Below, piece by piece: positions 4,585 to 59,864 of a DNA stretch of 64,000 nt (position 1 is its first letter; the number at the start of each line of letters is the position of its first letter). This DNA comes from Corynebacterium glucuronolyticum DSM 44120. Lineage in GTDB: Bacteria > Actinomycetota > Actinomycetes > Mycobacteriales > Mycobacteriaceae. The stretch is taken from positions 1,550,001-1,614,000 of the forward strand of contig NZ_CP047452.1 in NCBI RefSeq assembly GCF_030440595.1. Direction: 5' to 3'. The position numbers and the translations under genes were made by a program. Under the pieces are notes generated by a model. It was not told the origin of the DNA. It made no database searches and saw only the letters and a program-made list of their open reading frames with translations.

Positions 4585-4596
4585 GCTTGTCGACGC
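4585..4596 (-). repeat. Dispersed 12-bp word GCGTCGACAAGC, copy 1
   Basis: Exact 12-mer on the minus strand in the gap between aroE and the prepilin peptidase. One of ten copies in the window sharing CGTCGACAAGC; function unknown. Confidence 0.7.
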
Positions 4597-4667
4597 ACAT
4601 GGTTACTCGTCCACCAGGCACACCGTTACCTCGAGTACGCTTCATCTTTCGTATCAATGTCGGGGTT

Positions 4668-5483
4668 TCACTCGGCGAGATATTCATCCAAAGCATTCCG
4701 CATTGCGTCGCGAGGAGCCCGCAACCCGGTGTACTGCTCGAACTGGGAGAAGGACTGGTAGGAGAGCATGACGTTGCCTTCGACCGCGCTGCACCCTTTC
4801 TTTCGCGCGGCGGTTGCCAACGGAGTCGGGCGAGGATCGTAAATGACATCTAAGACCGGACATTGGGCAATGTCCTCTTCTTTTCCTGTTAAAACCACAG
4901 ATGGAACTGTTGATATCACAACTGCGGCATCTGAAGTCAGTGAAGCTAGGTCGACGGAGTAATCGACGTAGTGGAAGTCCGCATCACCGACGATGGGGCG
5001 CAGTTCATCAGATTTGTCGGTCCTATTAACTACGGTGACACCCGACGCACCAAGATATCCAAGAGCCCACAATGCTGGCCGCGATGTGCCACCTCCGCCA
5101 ATGACAACAGCGTCACGCCCACGCACAGTGCCAGCCACACCCAGCTCTTCAAGCGCACCGAGGATTCCTTCACAATCGGTATTGTCTGCAAACCACGTCC
5201 CATCCTCGTTATGCACAAGAGTGTTGGCGGAACCAATTGTGGCTCCCCGATCGGAAACTTCATCTGCGACATCCAGTGCCGCAAATTTACATGGCATCGT
5301 GACGCTCACTCCCCGCACCGATGAGTCAAGGTGAGAGATAAAGTCTGCCACCTCCTCGGCCACACATTCGTGACGGAGAAATGTCCATTCGGCGGCAATT
5401 CCGTACGCCTCGTAGCCGGCCGTGTGCAGTACCGGAGACAGTGAGTGGGCGATGGGTGAGCCGATTACATAGCAGGTGTTCAT
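4668..5483 (-). CDS. aroE: Shikimate dehydrogenase
   Basis: NADP(H)-dependent reduction of 3-dehydroshikimate to shikimate. The 271-residue product shows the substrate SLS motif (14-16), VTMPCK with catalytic Lys66 (family consensus VTxPxK), catalytic Asp in DNTD (about 100-103), and the Rossmann glycine motif GGGGTS. ATG 5483 is preceded by GGAG with good spacing; the frame is open upstream but that sequence is not conserved-looking. The neighbours are mltG upstream and the prepilin peptidase downstream, the standard actinobacterial order. Confidence 0.95.
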   Translation of the reverse strand: MNTCYVIGSPIAHSLSPVLHTAGYEAYGIAAEWTFLRHECVAEEVADFISHLDSSVRGVSVTMPCKFAALDVADEVSDRGATIGSANTLVHNEDGTWFADNTDCEGILGALEELGVAGTVRGRDAVVIGGGGTSRPALWALGYLGASGVTVVNRTDKSDELRPIVGDADFHYVDYSVDLASLTSDAAVVISTVPSVVLTGKEEDIAQCPVLDVIYDPRPTPLATAARKKGCSAVEGNVMLSYQSFSQFEQYTGLRAPRDAMRNALDEYLAE

Positions 5484-6239
5484 AGATTCTCCACTGATAA
5501 GTTGTGCACTGCGCACGCGCAATGCTCGATTTTTACGCTGACCACACGCATGCTGCCGTTCCACACACTCCAAACACAGCTCCCGCAGGTCGGTGCCCTC
5601 ATTAGGTTTACCTCGACAAACATGTCAGTGACAAACGAGAACGAAACCTAACGTGCACACCAACCCACGATCCAGACACCAGGATGATTGGCGAGCGATT
5701 AATAAAGGGCGCGTGCGTGGCCAATGAGCCGTGTGCGAGAGCACTGTTAGGAGCAAATGTACCAGGAGAGAAAGAAGGGCCGCATCCGTATTCCTGCATA
5801 CTGTCGGGAGAAACTCGGCTGCCAACTGGTACTCAGCGTGTTCGGCGAAGCGATTCGCGCTTTGGCCAAACCGGGAGCCTGCGGGAGCCTTCCACGCTGT
5901 CGCCCGGAGGAGAGAGAACATACGTGGAATCTCAGCACACAGCGATGCCGTTCAAGCTGGGATGCCGTACAAGCTGGGTAGAAAAGATGAAAAGCACATC
6001 GACGTGTCCGCGCTCGTGCTCCCGCACTCGTCCATGTTCACGATGATCGGCAGGGTGCGGCCTACGTCATCTGAGCGCAAACGCAAACCGCATTCTCCTG
6101 AATATCACACGACGTTGGTAGCGAGAAATGGGGAGACAGAACAATCCGGCGGTTAAACGTGACCAGTAAATAGGGAAATAAAGGGAAGGGAGCGCCCATA
6201 GGGCGCTCCCTTATCCACTAAAAGGCCTCTGATCCTCCG
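5484..6239. other. Long intergenic region mltG-aroE
   Basis: About 750 bp without a recognisable gene. It holds the mltG terminator at 6189-6211. Sequences near 5603 and 5647 contain AGGTTTACC and ACCTAACG, which look like isolated halves of iron-regulator boxes but do not form a full site. Confidence 0.4.
6189..6211 (-). terminator. Terminator downstream of mltG
   Basis: Perfect 10-bp stem GGGAGCGCCC with a 3-base ATA loop, followed on the minus strand by a T-rich stretch. Confidence 0.8.
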
Positions 6240-7469
6240 CTAGCGGTTGGAATCCAAGACTCCTGAATCTGCAGCTTTTTGTGTATCGGCCATGTGCTGC
6301 TCGAACGTGTCGTTAAAGACAGTCGTTCCGTCCCTGTCAATGGTGACAAAGAATAGCCAATTGCCGGGTGCCGGATTCTCCATGGCAGTCACTGCTTCGA
6401 TAGACGGCGAGGCGATCGGTGTGGCCGGAAGACCGTCCTTTGCGTAGGTGTTCCAGGGAGTGACGCGGGCGCGATCCTCGTCCGTCGTTGCAACTTCCTG
6501 CTCGTCCAGGCCGTAGTTGACAGTGGAATCAAACTCCAAACGCATCGGCTTTGCCAAGCGATTCAAGATGACGCGCGCCACCTTATCGAACTCGCCAGCG
6601 GGAGCCTCCCGCTCGACCAGCGATGCTGCCGTAAGCAGCTCGTAGGGACTCAAACCGATTGCTCCGGCACGCTCGACGATTCCAGTTTCTGTGAAGCTCT
6701 GAGCGGAGGTTGTGACCAGTTGTGTGAGAATCTCCTCTGCGCTCGCCTCGGGGTCAATAACGTATTCACCAGGTTCAATCAACCCTTCGAGGCGCTTCGG
6801 GTCACCTGTAGCCTCCTGCACATGTCCCATTGCCCATGACGGCACGCCAAGCGAGGTTGGGTCTGCGTTTGCGCCTGCAGACTGCAGTTCCTCTGGGCTC
6901 AAGCAGGAATCACCCACGCTGCAGGAAATAGCAGAGATGAGTGAGTAAATACCGAACCGAGTGTCCCCACCAACTACCTTGGAATCCATGAGGGTTGCGC
7001 CGGTAGGAACCTTCAGCAGATCAATCGCGTTTTCTGGATTAACAAACGCGTTGACAGCCGCCTCGGCACTCATCTTCTTCTGCAACTTGTAAAATCCGGG
7101 TTTTACATCCGCTGCTTTTGTATTCGTTGCCGCTGCTGATTGGAAAGCCTCGTTGCTCGAAACAACTCCCGTCTCCACCAGCGTCGGTCCCAGTTCTGAA
7201 AGCGTTGACCCTGGCTTGATTTCTGCTAGCACAATTTGTCCGTTACCATCTCCGCGAAAATCCCCACCACTTTGGGCCTTGACTCCGATGAAAGCAATTG
7301 CAGCGATGAGTGTGAGGATCAGGCCGATAAGCACGCCGATCCGCCGGCCACGTCCATCTCCAGTACCACTGCTGCCGGCATGCGAGCCATGCGCACCGCA
7401 GTAACCATTGCGAAACGCCGAGTCTGACGTTGGTTCTGAGCCTCCGAGAGCTGGTGATCTACGTGCCAT
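6240..7469 (-). CDS. mltG: Endolytic murein transglycosylase
   Basis: YceG/MltG-family lytic transglycosylase that cuts nascent glycan strands at the membrane. The 409-residue product has a polar Gly/Ser-rich N-terminus, one transmembrane helix (about 44-63) and an extracytoplasmic catalytic domain. The catalytic Glu lies in ASLVEREAP, followed by the typical VARVILNRL and FDSTVNYGL elements. The ATG at 7469 has no good Shine-Dalgarno, but TAGGAT lies about 17 bases upstream, so a short-leader or leaderless mRNA is possible. In relatives mltG directly follows ruvX; here a 620-bp gap separates them. Confidence 0.93.
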   Translation of the reverse strand: MARRSPALGGSEPTSDSAFRNGYCGAHGSHAGSSGTGDGRGRRIGVLIGLILTLIAAIAFIGVKAQSGGDFRGDGNGQIVLAEIKPGSTLSELGPTLVETGVVSSNEAFQSAAATNTKAADVKPGFYKLQKKMSAEAAVNAFVNPENAIDLLKVPTGATLMDSKVVGGDTRFGIYSLISAISCSVGDSCLSPEELQSAGANADPTSLGVPSWAMGHVQEATGDPKRLEGLIEPGEYVIDPEASAEEILTQLVTTSAQSFTETGIVERAGAIGLSPYELLTAASLVEREAPAGEFDKVARVILNRLAKPMRLEFDSTVNYGLDEQEVATTDEDRARVTPWNTYAKDGLPATPIASPSIEAVTAMENPAPGNWLFFVTIDRDGTTVFNDTFEQHMADTQKAADSGVLDSNR

Positions 7470-7614
7470 AATCAGAAATTTTATCCTATTGTTACCAAAC
7501 CGTGTGCAACGACCCGGCAATATCGGTTAGGAATTAATAAAAAATTTACCTCTCACCACTTTCCTTGCGCACAGACGGTGACTATTCGAAGACACCGAAG
7601 CGACCAGCTACCTG

Positions 7615-7626
7615 GCGTCGACAAGC
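7615..7626 (+). repeat. Dispersed 12-bp word GCGTCGACAAGC, copy 2
   Basis: Exact 12-mer on the plus strand in the ruvX-mltG gap. Confidence 0.7.
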
Positions 7627-8847: not shown

Positions 8848-8850
8848 CAG

Positions 8851-16805: not shown

Positions 16806-17459
16806 CTGTCGTGCCTTCCTTTCGTCCATATGTATGTTCTGACGTACCGTGTTCCGGCGACGCCTGAAGATAAATTCACTACATTTTCATGTGCCATCGA
16901 CGCTTTCGTGCCGGTGGGCACACATTGAATGGTAGTTTACTCGCCACCACCGCGCCCCGTGCACCCAGTCACGAACCCCACGTCGTTCACTACAACGCTC
17001 CCATTCCTTCTAGCCACGGAAGAGCCCCAAGACGTTTCAGGCATGCGCAACAGATAAGTATCACCCACAACAGAGACTGCGAGCTGCCCGCATCCTTTTC
17101 TCACGGTGGAGGTCAGTCTCTATATGAAGGCATTAACGGGGCACGAGCCCTTCTGTGGCCGGCACGATGCGGGCTTGGAGCACGCTCGCAGTGCCTCTTC
17201 CCAAGCCGAGGCCACGGCACTGGGTCCACCTGTGGAGTGGACCCCTCTAGACCCTGTGCGGTTTCTTCTCATCTTCAGCTTCCGCCAGCGCATCCCCCAC
17301 TGCTTGTCGACGCATCCCCTCACCGTCGGATTCTATTCTCTCGGTTCCCTTTTTGAATGCTCCCGCGATCTTTTGCAGTACTAAGAAAGCTACCCCCAAA
17401 TCTGCACACAGCGACGGGTAACCCGCGCCTGAAATCACCAGGCATGAAAGAATAGTCGC
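16806..17459. other. Divergent intergenic region aspS / metallopeptidase
   Basis: About 650 bp between divergently transcribed genes, so promoters for both should lie here. It contains one copy of the GCGTCGACAAGC word at 17302-17313 (minus orientation). No gene recognised. Confidence 0.4.
17302..17313 (-). repeat. Dispersed 12-bp word GCGTCGACAAGC, copy 3
   Basis: Exact 12-mer, minus strand, between aspS and the zinc metallopeptidase gene. Confidence 0.7.
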
Positions 17460-22383: not shown

Positions 22384-23784
22384 ATGACCATCAGCGCTGT
22401 TGACATTTTTAGCATCGGCATTGGACCGTCGTCGTCACACACGGTCGGCCCGATGCGAGCCGCCAAACGATTTGCTGAGGAGTTCCACCCCACCAACGTG
22501 AGAATCGAGCTTCGGGGGTCTCTCTCCTCCACCGGCCATGGGCATGGAACTGACCGTGCTTCCGTACTCGGACTGGCAGGTTATGAGCCGGTCACTGTTC
22601 CCTTGGACATCGACCCTAAGCCGGGCGCAGCCGTCCCCACCCATGGTTCGATCACGAGCATCGACGGGAAGGAAATTTCCTTCCACATCATTTTCAACGA
22701 TGTCGCTCTCCCCGAACACCCCAATGGCATGATCTTCACCGTGCTCGACGAGAACGACGAGCCGACCGACCAAACTGAGACGTACTTCTCGGTCGGCGGT
22801 GGCTTCATCCAGTCAGCCTCGGAGCTCAAGGCAGCTCAGGACGCACCGGGAGAAACGTCCGGCGGTGTCGCAACCCAGGACCAAGACGTGAAGGTCCCGT
22901 GGCCGTTTACCAACGGCGCAGAGATGCTCGACCGGTGTGAGCGCTCCGGCATGTCCATCTCGGAGATCATGATGGAAAATGAGGTTGCACTCCATGGTTC
23001 CGAGGAGTTCGTCAACAACCACCTCGATCTTGTCTGGGACACGATGGTTGAGTGTGTCGAAAAGGGCATGCGCGGTCGTGGCATCCTTCCCGGTGGCCTC
23101 GGCGTTCAGCGCCGCTGTTATGCGCTGCATCAGAAGCTTCTCCGGCACGAAAACGCTGAGCGTGCCGGCCAGCTGACGGCTATGGAATGGGTCAACCTCT
23201 ATGCCATGGCTGTCAATGAAGAGAACGCTGCCGGTGGTCGCGTCGTCACTGCACCGACCAACGGGGCTGCCGGAGTCATCCCCGCCGTGATGTACTACGC
23301 CAAGACGTACCTGCCCAACTTCGACCGCGAGGCTTCTCGACGCTTCCTCCTCACCGCTGCTGCCATCGGCATCGTCATCAAAACAAACGCTTCGATTTCC
23401 GGTGCTGAGGTCGGCTGTCAGGGAGAGGTCGGCTCTGCGTGCGCAATGGCCGCCGCAGGCCTGGCAGAGCTCTACGATTCCACCCCCGCCCAGGTAGAAA
23501 ACGCCGCTGAGGTTGCTCTCGAGCACAACCTTGGCCTCACCTGCGACCCGGTCGGTGGCCTGGTTCAGATTCCGTGCATCGAGCGCAATGCGATCGGTGC
23601 AGTGAAATCCATTAATGCCGCCCGGCTCGCACGCATGGGTACAGGCAGTCACCATGTTTCTCTCGACGATGCGGTTGTCACGATGAAGGAAACTGGCCTG
23701 GACATGATGAGTAAGTACAAGGAGACCTCAAAGGGTGGCCTGGCGGTCAACATCGGACTCCCGGTCACTATCACCGAGTGCTAA
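22384..23784 (+). CDS. sdaA: L-serine ammonia-lyase (iron-sulfur, single chain)
   Basis: Deaminates L-serine to pyruvate and ammonia. The 466-residue chain carries the beta domain first ([18 protein letters not shown]) and then the alpha domain, as in one-polypeptide enzymes. Conserved cysteines that hold the oxygen-labile [4Fe-4S] cluster are visible in [16 protein letters not shown] and [37 protein letters not shown] is the substrate region. A strong terminator follows, so it is probably monocistronic. Confidence 0.96.
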
Positions 23785-23955: not shown

Positions 23956-25218
23956 CTAGAGTCGTTCCTCCAGGAATGCCTGCACCGCGCTCAGTGAGAC
24001 GGTTTCCTGCTCATGGTTATTCATATCACGGACGGCGACATTTCCGTCTGCGAGCTCCTGCTCGCCGAGGACGAGGCAGTAGCGTGCGCCGGAGCGGGAC
24101 GCACCTTTCATAACCCCCTTCAGCCCACGGTCACCATAGCTCATATCGGTACTGACTCCCGCAGCTCGGAGATTATTGACCACACCTGCGAGAACTCGCT
24201 TTGCCTCGCTACCGAGTGGGACGCCGTACACGTCCACCCGCCTGGGGCTGCCTGCGGATACACCTTCTGCCTCCAGTGCAAGCAAAGTGCGATCAACACC
24301 GAGACCGAAGCCGATTCCGGAAAGCTCCTGTCCTCCGAGCTGAGCCATGAGACCGTCGTAGCGGCCACCGCCACCGATCCCGGACTGAGCGCCAAGCCCT
24401 TCGTGGACGAATTCGAAGCAGGTCTTGGTGTAGTAATCCAAGCCACGCACGAGCTTCGGGTTGATGGTGTAGGAAACACCGAAGTCGTCGAGAAGCCCCT
24501 TTACTACCTCAAAGTGCTCTCGAGACGAGTTTGAGAGATGATCCAGGAGAAGTGGCGCGTCGACAAGCATCTCCTGCACTTCTGGACGTTTGTCGTCCAG
24601 AACGCGCAAGGGATTAATTTCAGCTCGACGCTGGGTCTCCTCATCCAGCGGAAGTTTGCGGAGGAAAGCCTGAAGCTTTTCGCGGTAAGCCGGGCGACAT
24701 TCGGCATCACCAAGGCTTGACAGATCCAACCGGTACCCGGTCAAGCCCACAGACTTGTAGCATCGATCAGCGAGTGCAATGATCTCGGCATCCAGCGCCG
24801 GATCGTCTACGCCGATTGCCTCCACACCTACTTGTTGCAGCTGCCTGTAGCGTCCCGCCTGCGGTCGCTCGTACCGGAAGAACGGGCCCGAGTACACGAG
24901 CTTTACCGGTAGTTGTCCGCGATCAAGGTTGTGCTCAATCACTGCACGCATAACGCCAGCTGTGCCTTCAGGACGAAGCGTCACAGAACGACCGCCACGA
25001 TCCTCAAACGTGTACATTTCCTTCGTCACAACGTCCGTGGACTCGCCCACGCCACGCGCAAAAAGGTGGGTGTCCTCGAAAATAGGAAGCTCGATGTGCT
25101 CGAAACCGGCACGCTGAGCCTCGTGAGTAAACGTCTCCCGTACCGCAAGAAACTCGCGGGAAACCGGGGGCACGTAGTCGGGTACACCTTTAGGAGCAGA
25201 AAATGATACGTCAGTCAC
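23956..25218 (-). CDS. hisS: Histidyl-tRNA synthetase
   Basis: Class II synthetase, 420 residues from the GTG at 25218, matching family length. It shows [13 protein letters not shown] at the N-terminus, motif 2 [16 protein letters not shown], the histidine-A motif [14 protein letters not shown], and GGGGRYDGL. The frame stays open upstream, but that stretch is unrelated to the family. The Shine-Dalgarno of the chosen start is weak, so the start is approximate. The coding sequence contains one exact copy of the GCGTCGACAAGC word (24557-24568). Confidence 0.95.
24557..24568 (+). repeat. Dispersed 12-bp word GCGTCGACAAGC inside hisS
   Basis: Exact 12-mer within coding sequence; on the coding strand it spells codons for MLVDA, so it may be coincidental. 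Confidence 0.4.
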
Positions 25219-29420: not shown

Positions 29421-31712
29421 CTATCCCCCAGAAGTGAGCCTATACACGTCATACACGCCTTCCACGTTGCGCAGCTGAGACATGAGGGCACCAAGCTGTT
29501 TGGTATCCGAAACCTGGAAGGAGAACCGGCAGAACGCAACGTTGTCGTCACTGGAGTGAGAAGACGTGGCTAGAAGCGAAACCTTCTGATCACTGACCAC
29601 CTTCATCAAGTCAAACAAAAGGTTGTCGCGGTCGAGAGCTTCCACCTGCAGAGTCGCGGAGAAAACTCCCTGTCCTTGGCTTGCCCAGGTGACGTTGATT
29701 AAGCGCTCGGGTTCTTTCCTCAACTGAGCGGCATTCGTGCAGTCCGTCCGGTGAACGGAAACGCCACCGCCACGGGTGATGAACCCAAAGATCGCGTCGC
29801 CAGGAACGGGCATACAGCACCGGGCAAGCTTTGCAGCAATATCTGGGTCGCCCTCAACGAGGATCCCGGCATCATTGCCTTTCTTATCCGTCGGGTGGAT
29901 GCGAGGGCCAGCAGCGATGAGCTCTTCCGCAAGGGCTTCACCGCTCTTTGATTGATCGATCGGCTCTTCTTCATCGCCGAAAAGTGCGATGAGTCGCTTT
30001 GCCACGTGAGCGACGGATTCTGTCCCCGTCCCGATTGCAGCAAACATCGGTGCAACGTCGTTGTAGTGCAGGTCCTCAGCAACCGTCTTGACGGTCTTTT
30101 CCGTGAAGACCTTGGAAAGTGGGAATCCCGATCGCTGCATTGCAGCCGTGAGTTCTTCTTTGCCAGTTTCCTGGGCTTCCTGGCGGCGTTCGCGGGCAAA
30201 CCACTGGCGGATCTTCGTCTTCGCACGTGGCGAAGCGACGAATGATTCCCAGTCCTTGGAGGGACCCGCGTCGGGATCCTTAGAGGTGAACACCTCTACC
30301 CTGTCGCCATTGTTGAGCTTTGTCTCCAGAGCTACCAGCCGGCCATTTACTTTGGCACCGATAGTGCGGTGTCCGACTTCCGTGTGCACCTGGTAAGCGA
30401 AATCAATCGGGGTCGAGCCTGCAGGTAGATTCACAACGTCAGATTTCGGTGTGAAGACGAAAATCTGCTTAGCTGTTAGGTCATGGCGAAGGGTATCGAG
30501 GAATTCGTTCGGATCGCTCGCCTCTTTTTGCCAGTCCAACAGTTGACGCATCCAGGCCATCTGGTCAACCTCAGCCTGGCCACCCGTGTGCTTTCCTTTA
30601 GTCTCCTTGTAACGCCAGTGCGCGGCGATGCCGTACTCCGCCTGATAGTGCATTTCATGCGTACGCACTTGCACTTCGAGAGGTTTACCGTTGGGGCCGA
30701 GTAGCGTCGTGTGGAGCGACTCGTACACGCCATAGCGGGGATTAGAGATATAGTCCTTAAAGCGTCCTGGTAGCGCGGGGTACAGCGAATGCATGACGCC
30801 AATGGCTTCGTAGCAGAGCGCCTTCGTATCCACGAGGATCCGGATTCCCACGAGGTCAAACAACTCGTTAAAGTCATGGCCACGATCGGTCATCTTCTTG
30901 TAAATAGACCAGTAGTGCTTCGGCCTACCGACAACCTCAGCGATAATGTGGTTGGCTTTCAGTTCCTTCTTTACGGCGCTGATAATTTCCTTGAGCTGGC
31001 GGTCACGCGCAGGAGCTCTCTCTGCAACAAGGCGAACGATCTCGTCGTACTTCTTGGGGTACAAGATGGCAAAAGATAGATCCTCAAGCTCCCATTTGAC
31101 GCTCGCCAGCCCGAGCCTGTGCGCGAGTGGAGCAATGACTTCCAGCGTCTGGCGCGCCTTCTTGGCCTGTTTCTCTGGAGGCAGGAAGCGCATCGTACGC
31201 ATGTTATGAAGTCGGTCCGAAACCTTAATCACAAGCACGCGCGGGTCATCAGCCATGGCGACGACCATCTTGCGGATTGTCTCAGCCTCCGCAGCCGCAC
31301 CGAGGGCGACCTTATCGATCTTCGTGACACCGTCGACAAGCTTGGCAACCTCAGCCCCGAAATCTCGAGTGAGGTCCTCGAGGGTGTACTCTGTGTCCTC
31401 CACGGTGTCATGAAGGAGGGAGGCGACAACGGTTGTCGTGTCCATGCCCATCTCTGCAGAGATGGTTGCTACGGCCAGCGGATGCGTAATATACGGATCT
31501 CCGGACTTCCGCTGGACACCCTCGTGAAGGCGCTCGGCGGTATGGTAGGCGCGCTCGATGGTATCGGCATCAGCCTTTGGGTAAAACTTCCGGTGAATAG
31601 ATAGCAGTGGCTCAATAGCCGGGTCGACCCTCGACCACCCTCCCGTGAGACTTTTTGCCAGGCGGGCGGACATACTCCGTCGCGGACGCTGCTTGTTTGA
31701 TTCACCTGCCAT
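29421..31712 (-). CDS. relA: Bifunctional (p)ppGpp synthetase/hydrolase
   Basis: Long RSH enzyme of 763 residues controlling the stringent response. The HD hydrolase domain is intact ([22 protein letters not shown]). The synthetase domain includes VGIRILVDT and YQSLHT-like [16 protein letters not shown] ([26 protein letters not shown]) and C-terminal ACT domains follow. It begins 10 bases after the apt stop without a clear Shine-Dalgarno, suggesting translational coupling; MSARLAKSL 13 codons in is an alternative start. The coding sequence holds one 11-mer of the dispersed word (31331-31341). Confidence 0.97.
31331..31341 (+). repeat. 11-bp CGTCGACAAGC inside relA
   Basis: Eleven of twelve bases of the dispersed word, in coding sequence (codons for KLVDG); may be coincidental. 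Confidence 0.35.
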
Positions 31713-31722: not shown

Positions 31723-32265
31723 TTACTCGCCGTCTACGGAAAGTACCAGAAGTGGAGCATTTCCGAGCTTTTCGCGGCCACCGAGACCGTCCACTTCAAG
31801 AATGACTACGTAACCGACAACTTCCCCACCAGCCTGCTGAACAAGCTCGGTGGCGGCCATGAGAGTCCCACCGGTTGCCAGAACATCGTCGATAAGCACA
31901 ATCTTCTTACCCTGGATGTCAATGCCCTCCGCCGGGATTTCCAGCGCTGCCGTTCCGTATTCCAGAGTGTATTCCTCAGTGATGACCGGTGGCGGAAGCT
32001 TGCCTTTCTTCCGCACGGCGAGACACCCCTGTCCGAGCTTGTAGGCAACGGCAGAGCCAACAAGGAAGCCTCGCGCATCCAGTCCCGCAACAACCTCCCC
32101 GCCGAGCTTCTGAGAAAACGATGCGAGCTCATCGATGACGAGCGTAAATGCCTTAGCGTTGGCAAAGACAGGTGTCAGATCCTCGAAAACGACTCCTTCT
32201 TCAGGAAAACCCGGTACATGCCGTGTTAGCTCGTCGAGAGCCTCGCGCGCGGTGTTGAATGTCAT
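31723..32265 (-). CDS. apt: Adenine phosphoribosyltransferase
   Basis: Salvages adenine to AMP with PRPP. At 180 residues it has the normal length. The PRPP-binding motif [12 protein letters not shown] is present, as are the [13 protein letters not shown] loop and the flexible-loop YTLEYG segment. It sits between the DciA-type lipoprotein gene (7 bp upstream) and relA (10 bp downstream); linkage of purine salvage and ppGpp metabolism is conserved in actinobacteria. Confidence 0.96.
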
Positions 32266-34519: not shown

Positions 34520-35758
34520 CTAGTAACGACGCGTTGGTCGCCAGCTAGCGCCCAACGAAGTCTCACCATCTGGGGTGTTAAACCGCTCGGCATCCTCAGA
34601 GTTGACTCCTGTGGGACGAAGGCCATTCGCTCCCACAACCTCGTCATGCTCATCTACAGCGGCCGTACCATCTTCATTCACCAGTCCAGCCTCAACGGCC
34701 TCTTGGTAGGTTGCCCCATCAACGTCAGTCCCGCGAACGGCTGCAACCTGCAGGTTGTGCTTCTTGAACTTCTTCTGGCGATTCTTCATACTGACCAAAA
34801 GGGGTGTTGCGAGGAACACGGACGAGAAGGTGCCCTCAATAACGCCAATTAGCTGAACCACGGCCAGATCCTTCAAAGTACCAACACCCATGAGCCACAC
34901 CGCCACAATCATCAGAGCGATGATCGGTAGGGCGGAGATAACCGTCGTGGAGATTGAACGCATGACGGTCTGGTTCACAGCCAGGTTAGCCAACTCAGCA
35001 TACGTCTTCCGCGTGGTGTGCTCGAATCCCTCGGTGTTCTCCTGCACCTTGTCAAACACGACCACAGTGTCGTAGAGGGAGAAGGCCAAGACCGTGAGGA
35101 GACCGATGACCACGGCAGGCGTGACCTCCATGCCAACCAGCGCATAGCAGCCGGCGATGAAGACACCGTCGACGCCCAGCGCCGCAATTGCGGCAACGGA
35201 CATGTCACGCTCAAAGCGGATGGCAATGTATATGAAGATCAACAGCAGGAATGCGCCGAAGGCAACAATCATTCGGTTGGTGATCGTGGAACCCCACGAC
35301 TCTGACACCGTAGAATCGCCGACGGCATCGGGAGTGACTTCGCCCGACGCGTCCTTGGGCTGGAACTCGGTGTACAGAGCCTCCCGAGCAGACATGATTT
35401 GCTCGTCGGAAAGCCGCTCGGACGCGATCTCAAGGATGCGTGAATCCTGTGCACCCACGATCTGCACGCCTTCTGGGGTGACACCCGTGGCTTCCTCAAA
35501 TGTGCGGGACACCGCTGCAGTATCCAGGTTTGCAGCAGGCATCGTCATCTTTGTGCCACCCTGGAAATCAATCCCCAGGGTGAAGCCCCGGAAGATGATG
35601 CCAAGGGCACAGACCGCAAGCACGACCAGGGTAATGATGTACCACAGCTTGCGACGCCCGACGAAGTCGATGCCACCCTCGCCGGTGTACAGCCGCGTTA
35701 AGAAGGAGTGGTTGGTTTCTGGGGTTACGTCGTTGTCGACCCGTACCTGAGTAGTCAT
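34520..35758 (-). CDS. secF: Protein translocase subunit SecF
   Basis: Inner-membrane accessory subunit that with SecD pulls preproteins through SecYEG using the proton gradient. The 412-residue product has TM1 after the IDFVGRRKLWY box, the periplasmic FTLGIDFQGGTKM segment, then five more hydrophobic segments including SLYDTVVVFDKVQEN. The C-terminal 60 residues are acidic and variable. It starts two bases after the secD stop, so the pair is translationally coupled. Confidence 0.96.
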   Translation of the reverse strand: MTTQVRVDNDVTPETNHSFLTRLYTGEGGIDFVGRRKLWYIITLVVLAVCALGIIFRGFTLGIDFQGGTKMTMPAANLDTAAVSRTFEEATGVTPEGVQIVGAQDSRILEIASERLSDEQIMSAREALYTEFQPKDASGEVTPDAVGDSTVSESWGSTITNRMIVAFGAFLLLIFIYIAIRFERDMSVAAIAALGVDGVFIAGCYALVGMEVTPAVVIGLLTVLAFSLYDTVVVFDKVQENTEGFEHTTRKTYAELANLAVNQTVMRSISTTVISALPIIALMIVAVWLMGVGTLKDLAVVQLIGVIEGTFSSVFLATPLLVSMKNRQKKFKKHNLQVAAVRGTDVDGATYQEAVEAGLVNEDGTAAVDEHDEVVGANGLRPTGVNSEDAERFNTPDGETSLGASWRPTRRY

Positions 35759-35760: not shown

Positions 35761-37854
35761 TTACTTCTCCTCCTGGTTCACGATATGGGAACCATCTGGG
35801 CTGCCATCATCAAGGAGCGGAGCTCGCAGGTGTTCGGGCACTTTTGGCTCGTTGGCGATGGATTCCTCAAGGGTGATAAGTGATGATGGACGGTCGTCGG
35901 CAATCATATTCGATTCCGGTGCTTCGCTTGTGGCAGTTGATTCTATGTTGCCGTCCTCGTCGGAGACGGATTCGCCATCCGTGGCACCCGCATTCCGCTT
36001 GGCAAGCATCCGCTGGTTGTACCAGCCGGTATCGGCGGCCAGCTGCTCGCCGGCTGCACGGCGCTGTTCAACGAGCTCGTACACCTTGCCTAGGCCGTTG
36101 ACGCTCGCCTTAGCAAAGAACTTCTTCCGGGAGGCGAGGATAACCAGCGGTGCGGTGACGAAGAAGGTCACCGCAAGGTCGAACACCGTCGTCAGTCCGA
36201 GGGTAAAGGCGAAGCCCTTCACGTCGCCAACGGCGAGGATGTAGAGAACCACCGCGGCGATGACGGAGACGAAGTTACCGGAGATAATCGTCTTGCGGGC
36301 GCGATCCCAACCACGCGGAACTGCTGACCTGAATGTTCTGCCGTCACGTATCTCGTCCTTAATGCGCTCGTAGAGAACGACAAAGGAGTCGGCCGTCGTA
36401 CCGATACCGATGATCAAACCTGCAACGCCTGCGAGGTCGAGCGAATATCCGATCCATCGGCCGAGAAGGACGAGGGAGCCGTAGACGAGCGTGCCCGATG
36501 CCACGAGGGTGAACATTGCCAGCAGGCCGTAAAGGCGGTAGTTGACCAAGGAGAAAACGGCGACGGCGAGGAGACCGATCAGGCCTGCAATGAGGCCGGC
36601 GCGAAGCGAAGCTGCACCGAGTGTCGGCGGGATCACTGTCGTCGTGCCGCCACGCTCACCATTCTCACCGACGAAGCTCAGCGGAAGGGCACCGTACTGG
36701 AGGTTGTTAGCCAGCGTCTTGGCCTCTTCCTCATTCTTCATACCGGTAATCATGGTGGAGGATCCAACCGGCGTGGCCGATTGCACCTGCGGTGCCGAAA
36801 TAATCTGCGAGTCCAAGGTGACAGCGACCTGCTTGTTCAGGTACTCCTGCGTCAGCTTGGCCCACGTCTCAGAACCGGTCTCCCCATTGTCAGACTTGAA
36901 GGTGAAAACGACCTCGTTCTGTGCGGTCTGCGGGTTGATGCCACCGTTAATCGGGCGGTTGGTATCAATCTCGTTACCAGTCAGGCGACGTCCGTCTTCA
37001 GGCTCACCCACCAACAGCGGAGAGGGGCCGAGAAGCAGTGGCTGCCCCATCTCCGGGTAGCAAGCGACGAGTGGCTTGGACAGGTCGTCGCCACCAGCGA
37101 TCGGGTCGTGGGTGTTTTCCTCGGAGCATTCCATGAGGGCTGCTGCGGCCATCTGGGTAGCACCTTCAGTGGACTGACGATCCTTCAACATCATGTCGAA
37201 GACCTCATCGCGCCGCTTCTGCTCCTCGATGGAGTTCTTCGGTTCTGGCAACGGCTCGGCAGTTACGGTCGGCGCCTCGCCGGTTGCGGGAGCAGCCTCT
37301 TCCCCACCATTTTGAGCAGCCTGCTGGTTAAGCAGGTCGTGGTACTGCTTGAGTACTTCGTTGGCCTTTTCCGGCGTAACAAGCCCGTAGGAAACCCAAC
37401 GGTTAGCCATATCCGTCAGGGTGGGCATGATCTGATCCACCTGCGGAGCAGCTGGCTGCGATACTGTGCGGAAAACCAGCTGCGAGGTCTGGCCAAGGTT
37501 ACGGGCCTGTGCTGTGTCCTCGCCAGGCACAGTGATGACGAGCGTGTTGCCGTCGGTTACCACCTCGGCACCAGACACGCCCATGCCATTCACGCGGTTC
37601 TCAAGAATCGTGCGAGCCTGGTCCAGCTGCTGGGGGGTAGGTTCGCCCCCCTGCGGCACCAGCGTAACGCGTGTACCACCTTGCAGGTCAATGCCTAGCT
37701 TCGGCGTGTTTGCGCCGGGTGTAAAAAATAGGAGCGAGTACACCAGAATGAGAATGATTCCGAAGATACCCAGGGCACCCCACGGGTAGCGACCTACGAA
37801 ATCCGTGGTGCGCCGAGCCTTAGGTTCGGCCTTGCGTTCAGATTGTGACGCCAA
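35761..37854 (-). CDS. secD: Protein translocase subunit SecD
   Basis: 697-residue partner of SecF with six predicted membrane segments. The P1 region has LGIDLQGGTRVTLVPQGG; the C-terminal membrane part has AGLIIGIGTTADSFVVLYERIKDE. A Gln/Glu/Ala-rich insertion lies around residues 170-230 and a polar tail closes the protein. The start is read as TTG (37854) because GGAGG sits seven bases upstream; an ATG 24 bases earlier has no ribosome-binding site and overlaps that GGAGG. Confidence 0.95.
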   Translation of the reverse strand: MASQSERKAEPKARRTTDFVGRYPWGALGIFGIILILVYSLLFFTPGANTPKLGIDLQGGTRVTLVPQGGEPTPQQLDQARTILENRVNGMGVSGAEVVTDGNTLVITVPGEDTAQARNLGQTSQLVFRTVSQPAAPQVDQIMPTLTDMANRWVSYGLVTPEKANEVLKQYHDLLNQQAAQNGGEEAAPATGEAPTVTAEPLPEPKNSIEEQKRRDEVFDMMLKDRQSTEGATQMAAAALMECSEENTHDPIAGGDDLSKPLVACYPEMGQPLLLGPSPLLVGEPEDGRRLTGNEIDTNRPINGGINPQTAQNEVVFTFKSDNGETGSETWAKLTQEYLNKQVAVTLDSQIISAPQVQSATPVGSSTMITGMKNEEEAKTLANNLQYGALPLSFVGENGERGGTTTVIPPTLGAASLRAGLIAGLIGLLAVAVFSLVNYRLYGLLAMFTLVASGTLVYGSLVLLGRWIGYSLDLAGVAGLIIGIGTTADSFVVLYERIKDEIRDGRTFRSAVPRGWDRARKTIISGNFVSVIAAVVLYILAVGDVKGFAFTLGLTTVFDLAVTFFVTAPLVILASRKKFFAKASVNGLGKVYELVEQRRAAGEQLAADTGWYNQRMLAKRNAGATDGESVSDEDGNIESTATSEAPESNMIADDRPSSLITLEESIANEPKVPEHLRAPLLDDGSPDGSHIVNQEEK

Positions 37855-38467
37855 TGTAAATCCTCCACGACAAGCCATGAGCAGCGCGCCCGGTGTGGCG
37901 TGCACCTGTGGCAACCGAACTGGTTGCCGGTATCATGGCCAGTCAACTTATCATCTCTGACGCTTGTGAGCGCCACGTTTAGCAAGTAGTACTGTTTTAC
38001 CCTTCATAGAGAAGGGTGCACAACGGGTCTATGTTACGACATGCGCTGCTAAAGCGCACGCACCACCCCTGTCTTCCTGGCTTTTCGACGCCCGGTAGTA
38101 GCCCTTTCCAGTCATCACACGGAGAGACGTCATCTGCACCGCTTGTGCTGGCTCTCTCGCTGCAACGCTCACTGTCACGCCGGGGGTAGCACACCGGCCT
38201 CGCTGCCGGAGAGACGGTTGCACGCTCGCTGAGAAGCAATTTTCCTCCACCGCACATACCTCCACCATAAATCTCCACCATAAATAAAGGACCCGTCCTA
38301 CTCGCGCAAGTAGAACGGGCCGGATGAGCGGACCCACGTACCGGACCCTACAGGCGGGGTCGTCCTAGCGGGCTCCTAATAGCGGACTCCTAAAAGCGGA
38401 CGCGGATTTCTATGAGCCGACTAGACCTGCTCGTGCAAGACGGGATGGTGGGGTTACCATTCGGAGG
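37855..38467. other. Intergenic region yajC-secD
   Basis: About 610 bp. It contains the yajC terminator and a degenerate repeat of GCGGRCTCCTAA type near 38366-38402. secD therefore probably has its own promoter. No gene recognised. Confidence 0.4.
38286..38320 (-). terminator. Terminator downstream of yajC
   Basis: CCCGT(C)CTA / TAG(A)ACGGG imperfect stem with about 10-base loop; minus strand continues into TTTATTTA. Confidence 0.75.
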
Positions 38468-42588: not shown

Positions 42589-42600
42589 GCGTCGACAAGC
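42589..42600 (+). repeat. Dispersed 12-bp word GCGTCGACAAGC, copy 4
   Basis: Exact 12-mer, plus strand, in the yebC-ruvC gap. Confidence 0.7.
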
Positions 42601-44510: not shown

Positions 44511-45374
44511 TTATCCCTTCAAGTTCGTCATGGGAACCGGCGAAGTTCCATCTTTAAGCGTGCGGGTGAGTCCCTCTTGCGTGGCTACAGCTACGAGGTT
44601 TCCCGCTGAATCGAAAATTTTACCCTGCGTCAACGCTCGCCCATTTGCTGCACTCGGCGATACCTGGTCATAAAGAAGCCATTCGTCGGCACGGAAGGGA
44701 CGCAAGAACCACATAGCGTGATCCAAAGAGGCTTCCTGGACATCAATGTGCGGATGCGGGACAAGAGCAGACTGGAGCAGCGTCATATCCGACATGTAGG
44801 TCAGAGTACAGATATGGAAGGTTTCATCGTCGGGAAGCTTGTCCTTCGCACGGAACCACACCACCTGCTGAGATGGCGTATAGGGGTTGTGCTGGTAACG
44901 ATCCGGCGGTACGACACGAATGTCCCAATCACTCCATTCTTCGAGCAGTGCGCGATATGTGGCGTTCATGGATTCGAGTGGCCCCTCCGGGAGCTCGTCC
45001 GCAGAGGGCACATCACGCATTCGGTCCGCGTGCTCAATGCCTGTGTCTCCCCGTCGGTGGAAGCTGGCCTGCATGATGAAGATCGGTTTGCCCTCCTGGA
45101 CAGCCTTAACCTGGCGGGACACGAAACTGCGGCCGTCGCGAATTCGCTCCACAAGGAATACTGTTTGCAGCTCTGCCCTACCGGGCCTGATGAAATAACC
45201 GTGAAGCGAGTGGACGGTGTGATCGGAGTCCACTGTTTGTGTCGCCGCGACAAGGGTCTGTGCAGCGATTTGTCCACCAAATGTGCGGATGAAGTGCGAT
45301 TCGACGATCGGACCGACGAAGATATCGGTATCAATGCGCTCCAGGCTCAGTGTTTTCTCAATCTTGGACTTCAT
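44511..45374 (-). CDS. tesB: Acyl-CoA thioesterase II
   Basis: Double hot-dog thioesterase, 287 residues, hydrolysing acyl-CoA to free acid. Conserved segments include FGGQIAAQTLVAA, HSLHGYFIRPG, and the C-terminal SLDHAMWFLRPFRADEWLLYD containing the catalytic Asp. GGAGGTGACC directly precedes the ATG at 45374. The start overlaps the end of the preceding pcp-like gene by 17 bp. The tesB-pdxT adjacency is conserved in mycobacteria; its metabolic meaning is unclear. Confidence 0.93.
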   Translation of the reverse strand: MKSKIEKTLSLERIDTDIFVGPIVESHFIRTFGGQIAAQTLVAATQTVDSDHTVHSLHGYFIRPGRAELQTVFLVERIRDGRSFVSRQVKAVQEGKPIFIMQASFHRRGDTGIEHADRMRDVPSADELPEGPLESMNATYRALLEEWSDWDIRVVPPDRYQHNPYTPSQQVVWFRAKDKLPDDETFHICTLTYMSDMTLLQSALVPHPHIDVQEASLDHAMWFLRPFRADEWLLYDQVSPSAANGRALTQGKIFDSAGNLVAVATQEGLTRTLKDGTSPVPMTNLKG

Positions 45375-46077
45375 GGTCACCTCCGTGTGCGTGTACGAGT
45401 AGGGAGCGGACAAACGCGCTGACCGCAGTGAGTGTTTTCTCTGACGGTTCAACTGCAGGAACGTGAAGAAACGCAAACGTATTCAAAAACGCGTAGCCGA
45501 GAGCCGTCGTTGTGTTACAAATGTACAGCCCCGCGTCGCTTGAAATGGCCAATCCGGCTTTACGCGCAAGATTTACTACATTTTCAGGTGCTCGTACCGC
45601 ATACTCGAGTCCGTTTTCGCCGATCACTGCGGCCGGTGGACGAGGGCCGTCGTAGAGAACCCGTACCCCGGATCGGCGCCGAGCTCCGTCATTGGTTTCA
45701 CGCTGTGGGAGAGATGTTTCACTCCCCGTCGTGTTTGCCTGCACACGAGCAACTAGAGATTCGTGGGTCCGCGAAAGGAGGATGGAGGCCAGCGGGCGGT
45801 TAAAGTACTTTCCGGTATTGTCTGTGCCATGCTGCCACAGGCGCCCCGCTATCTCCAGGCGGGCACGATCTGCAACAGCAGCCTCGCCAATGCTGATGAT
45901 GGTCTCGCGCCTGTGATGCGCAAGAAAGGGGCCAATCGCATCAAACTCCACGGGTACCTGTTTCGCTTGGATGTCAAACCCCTCCTCCGCGAAGGTTCCC
46001 GCAACGCGTTCCGCCACGCGCCACGAGGCGTTTTCTGTCCGTCCACCAAATGGTTCGAAACCGGTAATTATGGCCAC
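45358..46077 (-). CDS. pcp: Pyroglutamyl-peptidase I-like cysteine peptidase (C15)
   Basis: Removes N-terminal pyroglutamate from peptides. The 239-residue product starts ITGFEPFGG, has the active-site region SIGEAA, the nucleophile Cys in SSDAGLYICNTTTALGY and a His in FLHVP. It is about 20 residues longer than usual owing to a polar Arg/Glu-rich insertion near 115-140, so activity is likely but not certain. It overlaps tesB and is probably co-transcribed with tesB and pdxT; this gene is not part of the mycobacterial arrangement. Confidence 0.85.
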   Translation of the reverse strand: MAIITGFEPFGGRTENASWRVAERVAGTFAEEGFDIQAKQVPVEFDAIGPFLAHHRRETIISIGEAAVADRARLEIAGRLWQHGTDNTGKYFNRPLASILLSRTHESLVARVQANTTGSETSLPQRETNDGARRRSGVRVLYDGPRPPAAVIGENGLEYAVRAPENVVNLARKAGLAISSDAGLYICNTTTALGYAFLNTFAFLHVPAVEPSEKTLTAVSAFVRSLLVHAHGGDHEVQD

Positions 46078-47748: not shown

Positions 47749-47760
47749 GCTTGTCGACGC
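47749..47760 (-). repeat. Dispersed 12-bp word GCGTCGACAAGC, copy 5
   Basis: Exact 12-mer, minus strand, upstream of pdxS in the gap to the LemA-like gene. Confidence 0.7.
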
Positions 47761-51059: not shown

Positions 51060-51070
51060 CGTCGACAAGC
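51060..51070 (+). repeat. Dispersed word CGTCGACAAGC, copy 6
   Basis: Eleven-base match, plus strand, 20 bp from the pgsA terminator. Confidence 0.6.
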
Positions 51071-54414: not shown

Positions 54415-54943
54415 ACCTGGCCGGCAACGTCACCCGCATTTTCTGTTTCCCCTCCCCTGGTAATAGGAAGGTCGCCCAGGCTTTCCGACGCCACGCTGGC
54501 ACGGTAGTTACGCAACGTGCGCTTTCCTCGTGGTTGCTTGTCGACGTTTGAAAGCAGAGCTGGTGTCATCGTACTCCCCAACCGTGGACAACGCTGTACC
54601 GGCCTTATAAAGAGATGATTATTCGGGGCCGACAGCGCACGAGTATGCCCGCCGGTCGGTGCATCCCCCCACTGCATCGCCTCGCATCGCAATGGCTCCG
54701 CCCCACAGCGGATCTCCGCCCCCATAGGTCCTCAAAGGGCCGCATAGATCCCCACAGATCAGCATAAGTCAATGCCCTAGACATGACACAACATGAGCAT
54801 GGACTGTCCCGTAGAGGCACGACGACGTGCCACCTCTGCGCGTTGCTTCTGGCAAGCGGACGTTGGTCGACCCCACACAGACCGAGGTGCACCGATATGC
54901 TTTACACATCGATGCACCTCATCAACTCATCGCCTTCGAAGGC
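54415..54943. other. Intergenic region Dyp peroxidase-thrS
   Basis: About 530 bp; one dispersed word (54536-54546) about 120 bp upstream of thrS. No gene or tRNA-responsive leader structure recognised. Confidence 0.4.
54536..54546 (-). repeat. Dispersed word CGTCGACAAGC, copy 7
   Basis: Eleven-base match, minus strand, upstream of thrS. Confidence 0.6.
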
Positions 54944-57653: not shown

Positions 57654-57699
57654 GTGTATGTACATCCTTTCTCATCGACCGGAAGGCCCGAATCCAGTG

Positions 57700-57776: not shown

Positions 57777-57841
57777 ATCGCACCGCGTATTTTTCACTCC
57801 AACCAATCACTTATTCCGAGATAAACAGTCTTGCCTATGTA

Positions 57842-57854
57842 TTGGTTATACCAA
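57842..57854. promoter_or_regulatory. Small inverted repeat TTGGT-TAT-ACCAA
   Basis: Perfect 5-bp arms around TAT, about 190 bp upstream of copC; possible operator, weak evidence. Confidence 0.3.
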
Positions 57855-58179
57855 CCAAACACCAGCCTAGAGAACCCGCCTCACCTTTCACAAGTAAGGC
57901 CCAACATATCTGAAATTCAAAACGTATAGAAGATGCACTACCCATCCCCATCTACCCTCTCCACCTAACGAGGAAGGCTCCAGACCTCACTCCTGATCCG
58001 CGCCATCGATTCCACCAAGATCCCCCACACTCCGATTCCTAACCCTTCCGAGGATCTGGATGGGCAGGCAGAAGCTAGACCCCCAGACACACGAAACTTC
58101 CCTTAACAACGACACGTCGTAACGACGCACGTTTTTCCCTTAACCCCTTAAGCTCCACATTCGCTAGCAATCGAGAAAA

Positions 58180-58213
58180 CAAAAGAGGTTCCCGCAGGAG
58201 CGCAGGAACCTCT
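58180..58213 (-). terminator. Terminator of the tRNA cluster
   Basis: AGAGGTTCC / GGAACCTCT 9-bp stem with TTTTGTTTTC downstream on the minus strand, directly after tRNA-Cys. Confidence 0.92.
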
Positions 58214-58216
58214 GGT

Positions 58217-58290
58217 TGGAGGTGGAAACGGGAATCGAACCCGTGTGCACGGTTTTGCAGACCGTTGCCTCACCACTCGGCCATTCCACC
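58217..58290 (-). tRNA. tRNA-Cys (GCA)
   Basis: Full cloverleaf on the minus strand: acceptor GGTGGAA/TTCCACC, anticodon loop with GCA, T-loop GGTTCGATTCC. CCA is encoded. Last gene of a four-tRNA transcript. Confidence 0.97.
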
Positions 58291-58346
58291 AAGTCATATC
58301 CCATTGTAAATGATGAGCCCCAACTCTTACGAGATGGGGCCTGGAG

Positions 58347-58419
58347 AGCGGATGACGAGATTCGAACTCGCGACCCTCACCTTGGCAAGGTGATGCGCTA
58401 CCAACTGCGCTACATCCGC
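58347..58419 (-). tRNA. tRNA-Gly (GCC), copy 1
   Basis: Acceptor GCGGATG/CATCCGC, anticodon loop TTGCCAA. CCA not encoded. Body identical to the other tRNA-Gly in the cluster. Confidence 0.97.
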
Positions 58420-58439
58420 AAAGAGCATTGAACTCTCAG

Positions 58440-58511
58440 TGCACGATACTGGGATTGAACCAGTGACCTCTTCCGTGTCAGGGAAGCGCTCTCCCGCTGA
58501 GCTAATCGCGC
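58440..58511 (-). tRNA. tRNA-Val (GAC)
   Basis: Acceptor GCGCGAT/ATCGTGC (one G-U), anticodon loop CTGACAC, T-arm ACTGG/CCAGT. CCA not encoded. Confidence 0.96.
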
Positions 58512-58535
58512 TAAAAGTGAAAACTAGTTTCACCG

Positions 58536-58608
58536 AGCGGATGACGAGATTCGAACTCGCGACCCTCACCTTGGCAAGGTGATGCGCTACCAACTGCGCT
58601 ACATCCGC
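58536..58608 (-). tRNA. tRNA-Gly (GCC), copy 2
   Basis: Same body as copy 1; first gene of the cluster in transcription order. Confidence 0.97.
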
Positions 58609-58904
58609 GTAACAACCAACTGCGCTTTGTGCTGTGCGTTGCTTGCTCCCAAAACAATAGCGTTAACTCAAAGATGTTACAAATCCCCTGGTAACAAGCT
58701 GTTTTGAAAAACGCTTTTGAATCACACGATTGGCATTAGGAGGCCTTGAGGCTGACCGATTGGAACCGTCGCGAATTCCCTGATCCGCCACATGGGCTCT
58801 CCTCCTTGTTTTTCCAGATGCTCTTTCCCCTTGGCCTCTCCCCGTTCCCCTAAAGAAGTGAGGCAACGATAATAGGGACCAGCACCACCACTGCGCGCGC
58901 GCCC

Positions 58905-59012
58905 GCCTTTCCCTCGACTCTCTTCTTTCCTCACATTTCTTCTCTTTCCTCCCCTTTTCTTCTCTTCTCTCCCACTACTTCCAAGCCTCCTCTTCCCCAC
59001 CCCTGCCCTCTC
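58905..59012. repeat. Polypyrimidine/polypurine tract
   Basis: About 108 bp in which the plus strand is overwhelmingly C and T (TTCT, CCTC, CTTTTC blocks), right after a GCGCGCGCGC run. Such tracts can form triplex or slipped structures. Confidence 0.8.
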
Positions 59013-59464
59013 ATCACACGTCCAGAGTTGTCCCATCATCCACAAAATCGTGGATACACAGCCCCAGGTGGCTGCAGAGCGTGATTTGAATCCGATGAGC
59101 ACCCCGCACATACGGCTACTCCCGCACACTTCGATACGGATTGCCATCGCGTTGGGAACGTCACCGCAACCACAATCATCGCGGCCTCCGGAGATCTAGG
59201 TTGGGCACCGATCGTCGAGGCGAATCACACAGCCCACGACCATAAAGAGAGCGCACTAGACGCACAGTACCGACACCATATCCCCGACCCCTAAGTACCG
59301 ATTGAATCCACACAAATGAGCACGTTTAGAGCCCGTAGAACGTGCACGTCAAGCTACGACACAAGCCCCAAACGTAAAATGCACCTACTGTTGCCCTCTT
59401 TGCCCGACTCTTACGCTTTGATCCACTGATCCCAGAGGAGGCGATATCGCTCCCTGCCCCCGAC

Positions 59465-59491
59465 AATGAAAGAGCCCGCACTAGGCGGGCT
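59465..59491 (-). terminator. Terminator of tRNA-Val (CAC)
   Basis: AGCCCGC-ACTAG-GCGGGCT hairpin six bases after the tRNA, followed by CTTTCATT on the minus strand. Confidence 0.85.
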
Positions 59492-59496
59492 GTCAG

Positions 59497-59568
59497 TGGT
59501 CCCAGCTGGGATCGAACCAGCGACCTTTCCGGTGTGAACGGAACGCTCTTCCACTGAGCCATGGGACC
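59497..59568 (-). tRNA. tRNA-Val (CAC)
   Basis: Acceptor GGTCCCA/TGGGACC, anticodon loop TTCACAC, T-arm GCTGG/CCAGC. CCA not encoded. Separately transcribed with its own terminator. Confidence 0.96.
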
Positions 59569-59852
59569 AACGAGAGACTAGGTTACACGGTTCCCCCGAC
59601 TCTCACTAATCGCCTGGTCACATGGCTTTGCGAAGCGGAGTACAGGATCAGATGAACAGGATTCGCACTGGCCCCATCACTACCGCGCGCCTATCTTCTC
59701 ACTGCTTCTGTGATATTCCCCCGGACAACTGAGTTCCTTCCTGCGCGGGTGAGTAAAGCGACGTTTACGTTCCAAGAAGCAGACCAAACGCGGACCTGTC
59801 GACCGGGTGCAGGAGAACAACTCGAAAGCCCGCGGAAACGGGGCGCTGAGGG

Positions 59853-59864
59853 GCGTCGACAAGC
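59853..59864 (+). repeat. Dispersed 12-bp word GCGTCGACAAGC, copy 8
   Basis: Exact 12-mer, plus strand, upstream of aftC. Confidence 0.7.

Follow-up and report, generated by a model that had tools for sequence, protein, structure and literature searches.

The 64,000-nucleotide window analyzed here (bases 1,550,001 to 1,614,000 of the 2,866,769-base contig NZ_CP047452.1 of Corynebacterium glucuronolyticum DSM 44120, a genome denoted G000 below) carries dispersed copies of the word CGTCGACAAGC, a variant form of the larger motif CGTCGNNAAGC, which consists of nine fixed bases and two free central bases. This motif is probably (at a probability of roughly 0.7) a DNA uptake sequence of Corynebacterium, similar in kind to the DNA uptake sequence (DUS) of Neisseriaceae and the uptake signal sequence (USS) of Pasteurellaceae, that would be read in natural transformation via Tad-type pili. 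The dispersed and over-represented word noticed earlier in the window, in what we call here the sequence-only reading, is real and is part of a genus-restricted motif. The best named match of ThrS, at 80%, comes from a Corynebacterium metagenome-assembled genome, in agreement with the genus. High copy number, strand symmetry, restriction to the genus, dialects, selection at the DNA level, conservation of sites, depletion in prophages, hairpin pairs and machinery genes are all observed; the hallmarks of DUS and USS that were tested at the sequence level are in place, and we infer competence, a bias in uptake and a receptor.

The complete genome contains 352 exact copies of CGTCGACAAGC (177 + 175), against 4 copies of the word read backwards, a count that is clearly not near expectation. 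A 464-kb sample of the genome, with the window as a part of it, contains 80 exact words. Single mismatches remain near the background, and the exceptions are mainly at the two central positions; when the center is left free, the same sample yields 170 copies of CGTCGNNAAGC, 80 of them with the center AC, compared to 4-17 copies for each of eight control words of similar make-up. Genome-wide, CGTCGNNAAGC is present in 998 copies (493 + 505) and its reversed control in 55 (27 + 28). Among 201 Corynebacterium genomes, evenly sampled from a larger group, two classes are apparent, with no genome between them: 139 genomes with 280-1964 copies (median 1094), hereinafter word-bearing genomes, and 62 genomes with 8-134 copies (median 58), approximately the level of the control, which averages 66 copies in the former class and 65 in the latter. 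In 57 genomes from 30 other genera of the family, CGTCGNNAAGC (28-418 copies) is near its reversed control, with the largest ratio, about 1.7, in G350. Beyond the genus, the exact word was counted in 120 genomes, which carry 2-40 copies each (controls, 3-89); isolated small counts exceed the respective control, and none approaches this genome.

A gapped-word scan of two genomes that lack CGTCGNNAAGC, G110 and G178, yielded GCTTNNCGATG, that is, CATCGNNAAGC, a dialect that differs from the first one by a single base (CGTCG to CATCG). This dialect reaches 625-1337 copies in 11 of the 201 genomes (G006, G053, G094, G104, G110, G137, G142, G143, G150, G152 and G178), the next-highest counts being 213 and 211. 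Ten of these 11 genomes, with 625-1184 copies, belong to the 62 without CGTCGNNAAGC; the remaining one, G142, carries both dialects (352 copies of CGTCGNNAAGC and 1337 of CATCGNNAAGC) and is perhaps in the course of a dialect switch. Altogether, 149 of the 201 genomes carry one dialect or both. Finer differences between species involve the center of the word (AC in G000, 82 of 180; AT in G063, 19 of 45) and its flanks (T before the word in 69% of the cases in G141; G-rich upstream sequence in G063).

Further candidate words were sought in the genomes with neither dialect. The word TGGTGGCGTCG, counted in all 52 of these genomes and in four others, occurs 137 times in G010 and 235 times in G015 (controls, 4 and 10, respectively), more weakly in G081, G134 and G147 (47-53 copies; controls, 3-10) and slightly above the control in several others; it has CGTCG in common with the first dialect and is a possible third dialect, at this point a lead suggested by sequence. 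The stretches of G010 and G015 in which it was seen are L134-L136, L155 and L251-L254. In a 200-kb sample of G151, which has neither dialect (stretches L137-L139, L157, L201 and L246-L250), GCGTCGAGC occurs 22 times compared to 1.9 expected, and ACGTCGAAC 12 times compared to 1.1 expected. The word CGATGAGC, considered as a dialect of G014, was dropped, being enriched in word-bearing genomes as well. That the whole genus runs an uptake-sequence language with a Tad-pilus receptor, in the dialects CGTCGNNAAGC and CATCGNNAAGC along with the candidates TGGTGGCGTCG (G010 and G015) and [AG]CGTCGA[AG]C (G151), we regard as an evenly balanced proposition.

Eight of the ten exact words in the window lie outside genes, which had led to the claim that the word is concentrated in intergenic regions. 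This holds for the window by the calls of a home-made gene finder, which assigns 67% of it as coding, such that missed genes may contain some of the eight sites, and it fails for the genome as a whole: 56 of the 80 exact sites in the 464-kb sample are in genes. The same gene finder, applied to 1.12 Mb from 11 word-bearing genomes, places 452 words in genes and 96 outside, with equal pooled densities in coding and non-coding DNA (0.49 and 0.47 per kb, respectively), and in G098 and several other genomes the density outside genes is lower than inside. The intergenic excess of the window is a local quirk; of the two outcomes named as refuting in the sequence-only reading, equal density applies to the intergenic part of the claim, and a count near the model expectation does not apply. 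A role of the word as an intergenic regulatory site is ruled out by the equal pooled density. The intergenic excess in G191 (L131-L133, L146) and G175 (L147) is larger than in the other nine sampled genomes, the samples being small. Among the 452 genic words, 300 share one frame and orientation, with the sense reading xxG CTT NNC GAC Gxx, where the free center occupies the first and second positions of the middle codon. In the context of the word, leucine is encoded by CTT in 299 of 353 cases (85%), although CTT is a rarer codon that accounts for 13% of leucine codons overall; the rarer codon is imposed by the word, and therefore selection acts on the DNA rather than on the peptide.

The sites are also conserved. 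Comparison with the sister species G166 (ThrS 97% identical; 97,835 aligned bases, 21% divergent) shows that all nine fixed bases are retained at 17 of the 25 alignable words, compared to 13.1% for random positions of the same layout (binomial P of about 4e-10) and to 0 of 16 for control words. Among the eight aligned words that differ, seven do so by substitutions only and one includes a one-base gap; four words are present only in G166, and their aligned counterparts in the window differ from the word by substitutions. With the center free, an option that the sequence-only reading had overlooked, the window contains 17 words, ten of them of the exact form:

4585..4595, minus strand: word CGTCGACAAGC (center AC), outside called genes.
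7616..7626, plus strand: word CGTCGACAAGC, outside called genes, close to an mltG-like gene.
17302..17312, minus strand: word CGTCGACAAGC, outside called genes, spanned by an open reading frame (ORF) of 155 amino acids at 16889-17356.
23332..23342, minus strand: motif variant CGTCGAGAAGC, within ORF 22384-23784, kept in G166.
24486..24496, plus strand: motif variant CGTCGAGAAGC, in hisS, kept in G166.
24558..24568, plus strand: word CGTCGACAAGC, in hisS, antisense, kept in G166.
31331..31341, plus strand: word CGTCGACAAGC, in relA, antisense, kept in G166.
31887..31897, plus strand: motif variant CGTCGATAAGC, within ORF 31723-32265, kept in G166.
35404..35414, plus strand: motif variant CGTCGGAAAGC, within ORF 34520-35758, lost in G166 via substitutions.
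38080..38090, minus strand: motif variant CGTCGAAAAGC, past ORF 35761-37914.
42590..42600, plus strand: word CGTCGACAAGC, outside called genes, upstream of ruvC.
44828..44838, plus strand: motif variant CGTCGGGAAGC, within ORF 44511-45476; the aligned place in G166 reads CATCGGGAAGC.
47749..47759, minus strand: word CGTCGACAAGC, outside called genes.
51060..51070, plus strand: word CGTCGACAAGC, flanked by the genes for phosphatidylinositol mannoside acyltransferase and for phosphatidylinositol phosphate synthase.
54480..54490, minus strand: motif variant CGTCGGAAAGC, upstream of thrS, kept in G166.
54536..54546, minus strand: word CGTCGACAAGC, upstream of thrS; the nine fixed bases are kept in G166, one central base and the flanks differ.
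59854..59864, plus strand: word CGTCGACAAGC, outside called genes, spanned by an ORF of 188 amino acids at 59680-60246.

All ten exact sites previously listed for the window are thus present, with four plus-strand coordinates pointing to the preceding G rather than to the 11-mer itself, and a G precedes the word at seven of the ten, in agreement with the reported seven exact 12-mers. The word is indeed far above chance, with an expectation of 0.08 by dinucleotide shuffling (about 0.03 in the sequence-only reading). The gene names hisS and relA were correctly assigned, and the reported lack of shared flanks is supported, no common sequence being detectable beyond codon periodicity.

The two orientations of the motif are used equally, with 75,600 forward and 75,566 reverse copies of CGTCGNNAAGC in the 139 word-bearing genomes, and the G-rich strand is not preferred in any of the five genomes tested, stretches with weak skew excluded. 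A replichore split with the origin assumed at the contig start was not used, the GC skew at that point giving no support. Forward and reverse copies are balanced more evenly across the 139 genomes than binomial sampling predicts (standard deviation of z, 0.78 instead of 1). The spacing of the words is close to random. Among divergent neighbors less than 60 bp apart, six of seven have matching centers and form perfect inverted repeats, compared to none of the eight convergent neighbors; five of the six inverted pairs are found outside genes, at a distance of 6-51 bases from the end of a gene. By their sequence, these pairs at gene ends resemble the terminator pairs described for the USS (PMC5217627, in part).

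The distribution of the motif in mobile DNA was assessed on prophages. No Corynebacterium phage or plasmid was present among the 40 matches listed of 2121 portal and 2558 transposase records, and therefore only prophages were counted. A portal-protein search of 80 word-bearing genomes gave 11 matches, nine of them over the cut-off; the respective nine prophage stretches (174,829 bases including flanking host DNA) contain 15 words compared to 79.1 expected from their own genomes, and seven of the 15 are located within the final 5 kb of two of the stretches. Per kb, the word density in the prophage stretches is 0.17 of that in the reference stretches. The reference set had included one prophage-bearing stretch, L046, the only one of 59 without the word, which carries genes for an integrase, an endolysin and a minor tail protein; these prophage genes of the genome analyzed here are located in the word-free stretch at L046:8870-20000 (G000:C1:1958870-1970000). 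Two portal genes were noted in passing: the one at L185:9654-10652, in a prophage-like stretch of G173, encodes a portal protein about 80% identical to those of gut Oscillospiraceae phages and 79% identical to that of Streptococcus phage Javan630, and the match in G166 (C32:3675-4676) contains one in-frame TAG.

Genes for DNA uptake and transformation are nearly universal in the genus. ComEC is encoded in 200 of the 201 genomes (G200 being without it), a TadA-like ATPase in 198 (192 over the cut-off; none in G024, G075 and G092), and the DprA family is represented in all 201. We read 20 ComEC loci, ten from genomes with the first dialect, four with the CATCG dialect and six with neither; the ComEA of G000, which carries SLBB and helix-hairpin-helix domains, has a homologue in all 19 others, for a total of 20 of 20. 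By family models, the Tad loci encode an Rv3654c-family TadE-like protein (over the cut-off), a TadE_Rv3655c-like protein (under the cut-off) and DUF4244, and these family names agree with the mycobacterial occurrence of Tad-like clusters. The three Tad loci from genomes with neither dialect (G014, G151 and G171; 11 Tad loci read) encode the DUF4244 pilin-like protein as well as two TadE-like ones. The machinery genes are found with and without the word, and therefore gene presence does not explain word status. Loss of ComEA and loss of pilin genes were both rejected as the cause of a missing word, ComEA being present in the six word-free loci and the pilin genes in the three word-free Tad loci.

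Under the uptake-sequence interpretation, corynebacteria would be naturally transformable, now or in the recent past, through a route that leads from a Tad-type pilus via ComEA and ComEC to DprA. A putative surface receptor would bind double-stranded DNA at the nine fixed bases, in either orientation, and its choice would cause DNA of the same species to be taken up preferentially. Fragments bearing the word would then enter and recombine more often, such that words build up by point mutation, accumulating wherever proteins and regulatory sites tolerate them, with few in prophages. Co-evolution of the receptor and the word could give rise to the dialects, both the change from CGTCG to CATCG and those of the central and flanking bases.

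Inverted DUS pairs at gene ends serve as terminators in Neisseriaceae. Similarly to the corynebacterial word, the DUS is short and non-palindromic, exists in very many copies and forms related dialects with a common core (PMC3630211, in part), and its distribution in mobile DNA is atypical (PMC7371117, in part). Unlike the DUS, the corynebacterial word has a different sequence with two free central bases and belongs to a Gram-positive phylum with Tad-type pilus genes instead of ComP-bearing type IV pili. The USS has A/T-rich, helically spaced flanks; unlike it, the corynebacterial word has another sequence, comes from another phylum and showed no such flanks in the flank comparisons. Haemophilus influenzae has about 1300 USS copies, and its terminators often consist of two USS in opposite orientation (PMC5217627, in part); across Pasteurellaceae, there are two versions of the USS, A and B (PMC3630211, in part). 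Within Actinobacteria, Flp pili are required for transformation of Micrococcus luteus (PMC6370729, in part), and its Flp/Tad transformation genes are matched in kind by Corynebacterium ComEC, the TadA-like ATPase, ComEA, the TadE-like pilins and the DUF4244 pilin-like protein. The terms "uptake sequence" and "uptake signal" were absent, in a term search, from the main text of a study on M. luteus (PMC4322843). The M. luteus flp gene and the corynebacterial DUF4244 gene are likened by kind rather than by family.

Some other dispersed words are less similar. Chi and the FtsK-orienting polar sequences (KOPS) are short asymmetric words with many chromosomal copies, both strand-biased, unlike the corynebacterial word, for which a replication-strand bias was looked for and is not present; the suggestion that the word guides a segregation protein in a KOPS-like, strand-directed manner is contradicted by the 50:50 strand use. 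The highly iterated palindrome HIP1 of cyanobacteria is a dispersed 8-base palindrome of debated function in one bacterial group, whereas the corynebacterial word is asymmetric and bipartite, with dialects and prophage depletion.

Uptake-like signal, one of the three ideas put forward in the sequence-only reading, is the one that fits, and the main rival is one of the other two: a chromosome-organizing or nucleoid protein that binds the word at 1000-2000 places, which would be kept by selection for packing or domain structure. We consider this unlikely, although it accounts for a part of the observations: the word is spread chromosome-wide in most of the genus genomes examined, is conserved and is scarce in prophages, and dialects would track changes in the protein. 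It explains less than an uptake signal does. The equal pooled density in genes and outside and the lack of a strand pattern argue against it, as does the retention of exact, asymmetric nine-base words at a codon cost with near-misses near the background, a combination that is not known to be typical of nucleoid proteins; hairpin pairs at gene ends would be unexpected as well. Abundance on the chromosome along with depletion in prophages is also what would be seen for a mark of self in recombination or defense, either a Chi-like site that guards against an end-processing nuclease (AdnAB/RecBCD, for example) or a positively selected modification site. The former does not agree with the 50:50 strand use because Chi-type sites are active in a single orientation and most of them are found on the leading strand, and the latter does not agree with the enrichment because restriction sites are usually avoided; this explanation is accordingly less probable still.

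If the word were left over from a small mobile element, the third of the early ideas, or were the target of one, it could be dispersed in both orientations, as is observed. We give this next to no credence: there are no shared flanks, the genic copies occupy a preferred frame, and the differences from G166 described above are almost entirely base substitutions at aligned positions. Equally implausible is an artefact of codon usage or common peptides, in which tripeptides, for instance Leu-X-Asp or Val-Asp-Lys, would produce the word through high-GC codons. The single frame shared by 300 of the 452 genic words is what this would predict, whereas the pooled density is as high outside genes, neighbors of the word are rare, the rarer CTT is used in preference to other leucine codons, and counts of the word stay close to the control both in other genera and in some of the Corynebacterium genomes.

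Several observations weigh against an uptake sequence. The eight control words are also slightly low in prophages (pooled, 20 compared to 188 in the reference, a ratio of about 0.7; singly, from 0 to 1.25 with small counts), one of them, CCTGGNNAAGC, being as depleted as the motif (1 compared to 36), and any motif that builds up slowly would be expected to be depleted in prophages. Two of the 11 sampled genomes, G191 (80 kb) and G175 (19 kb), carry about three times as many words per kb outside genes as within them. Neither dialect reaches high copy in 52 of the 201 genomes, of which 51 encode ComEC (all except G200), 51 have a TadA match (all except G024) and 52 encode DprA. Tad-like clusters of the same kind occur in mycobacteria and are therefore no proof of competence. 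No receptor was found, and no gene tracks word status among ComEA and the pilin genes in the loci read. Known uptake sequences show more enriched near-misses, and the single-mismatch neighbors of the word are close to the background in this genome. Finally, no report of natural transformation in Corynebacterium was found in the open-access literature, searched mainly by titles and abstract openings. Our confidence in an uptake sequence is limited to the value given above by the missing receptor, the 52 genomes with no recognized word and the absence of a competence report; that value already includes a slight reduction for the pilin genes of a kind shared with mycobacteria and for the somewhat low control words in prophages.

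To our knowledge, uptake sequences are known only from two Gram-negative families. For corynebacteria, no paper on an uptake sequence was found in the open-access literature at the same level of search, and a spaced-motif scan that names Corynebacterium species reports, in the parts consulted, only pairs from clustered regularly interspaced short palindromic repeats (CRISPR) for them (PMC5217627). If correct, the interpretation of the motif as an uptake sequence would reveal the first such system outside the Gram-negative families with established ones, with an independent origin in a phylum that has a mycolate outer membrane; as a third, independent case, it would imply that the trait evolves repeatedly. 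Many corynebacteria would then be predicted to be naturally transformable, with the word on donor DNA as a concrete handle, and the word would also help to spot foreign DNA in corynebacterial genomes. The approximately 200 species, including G142 with both dialects, would amount to a natural experiment in dialect evolution. In stretches L031-L050 of G000, overlapping pieces of a repeat like CTCATCCCCGCAGGTGCGGGG are among the commonest 11-mers, and this repeat looks like a CRISPR array.

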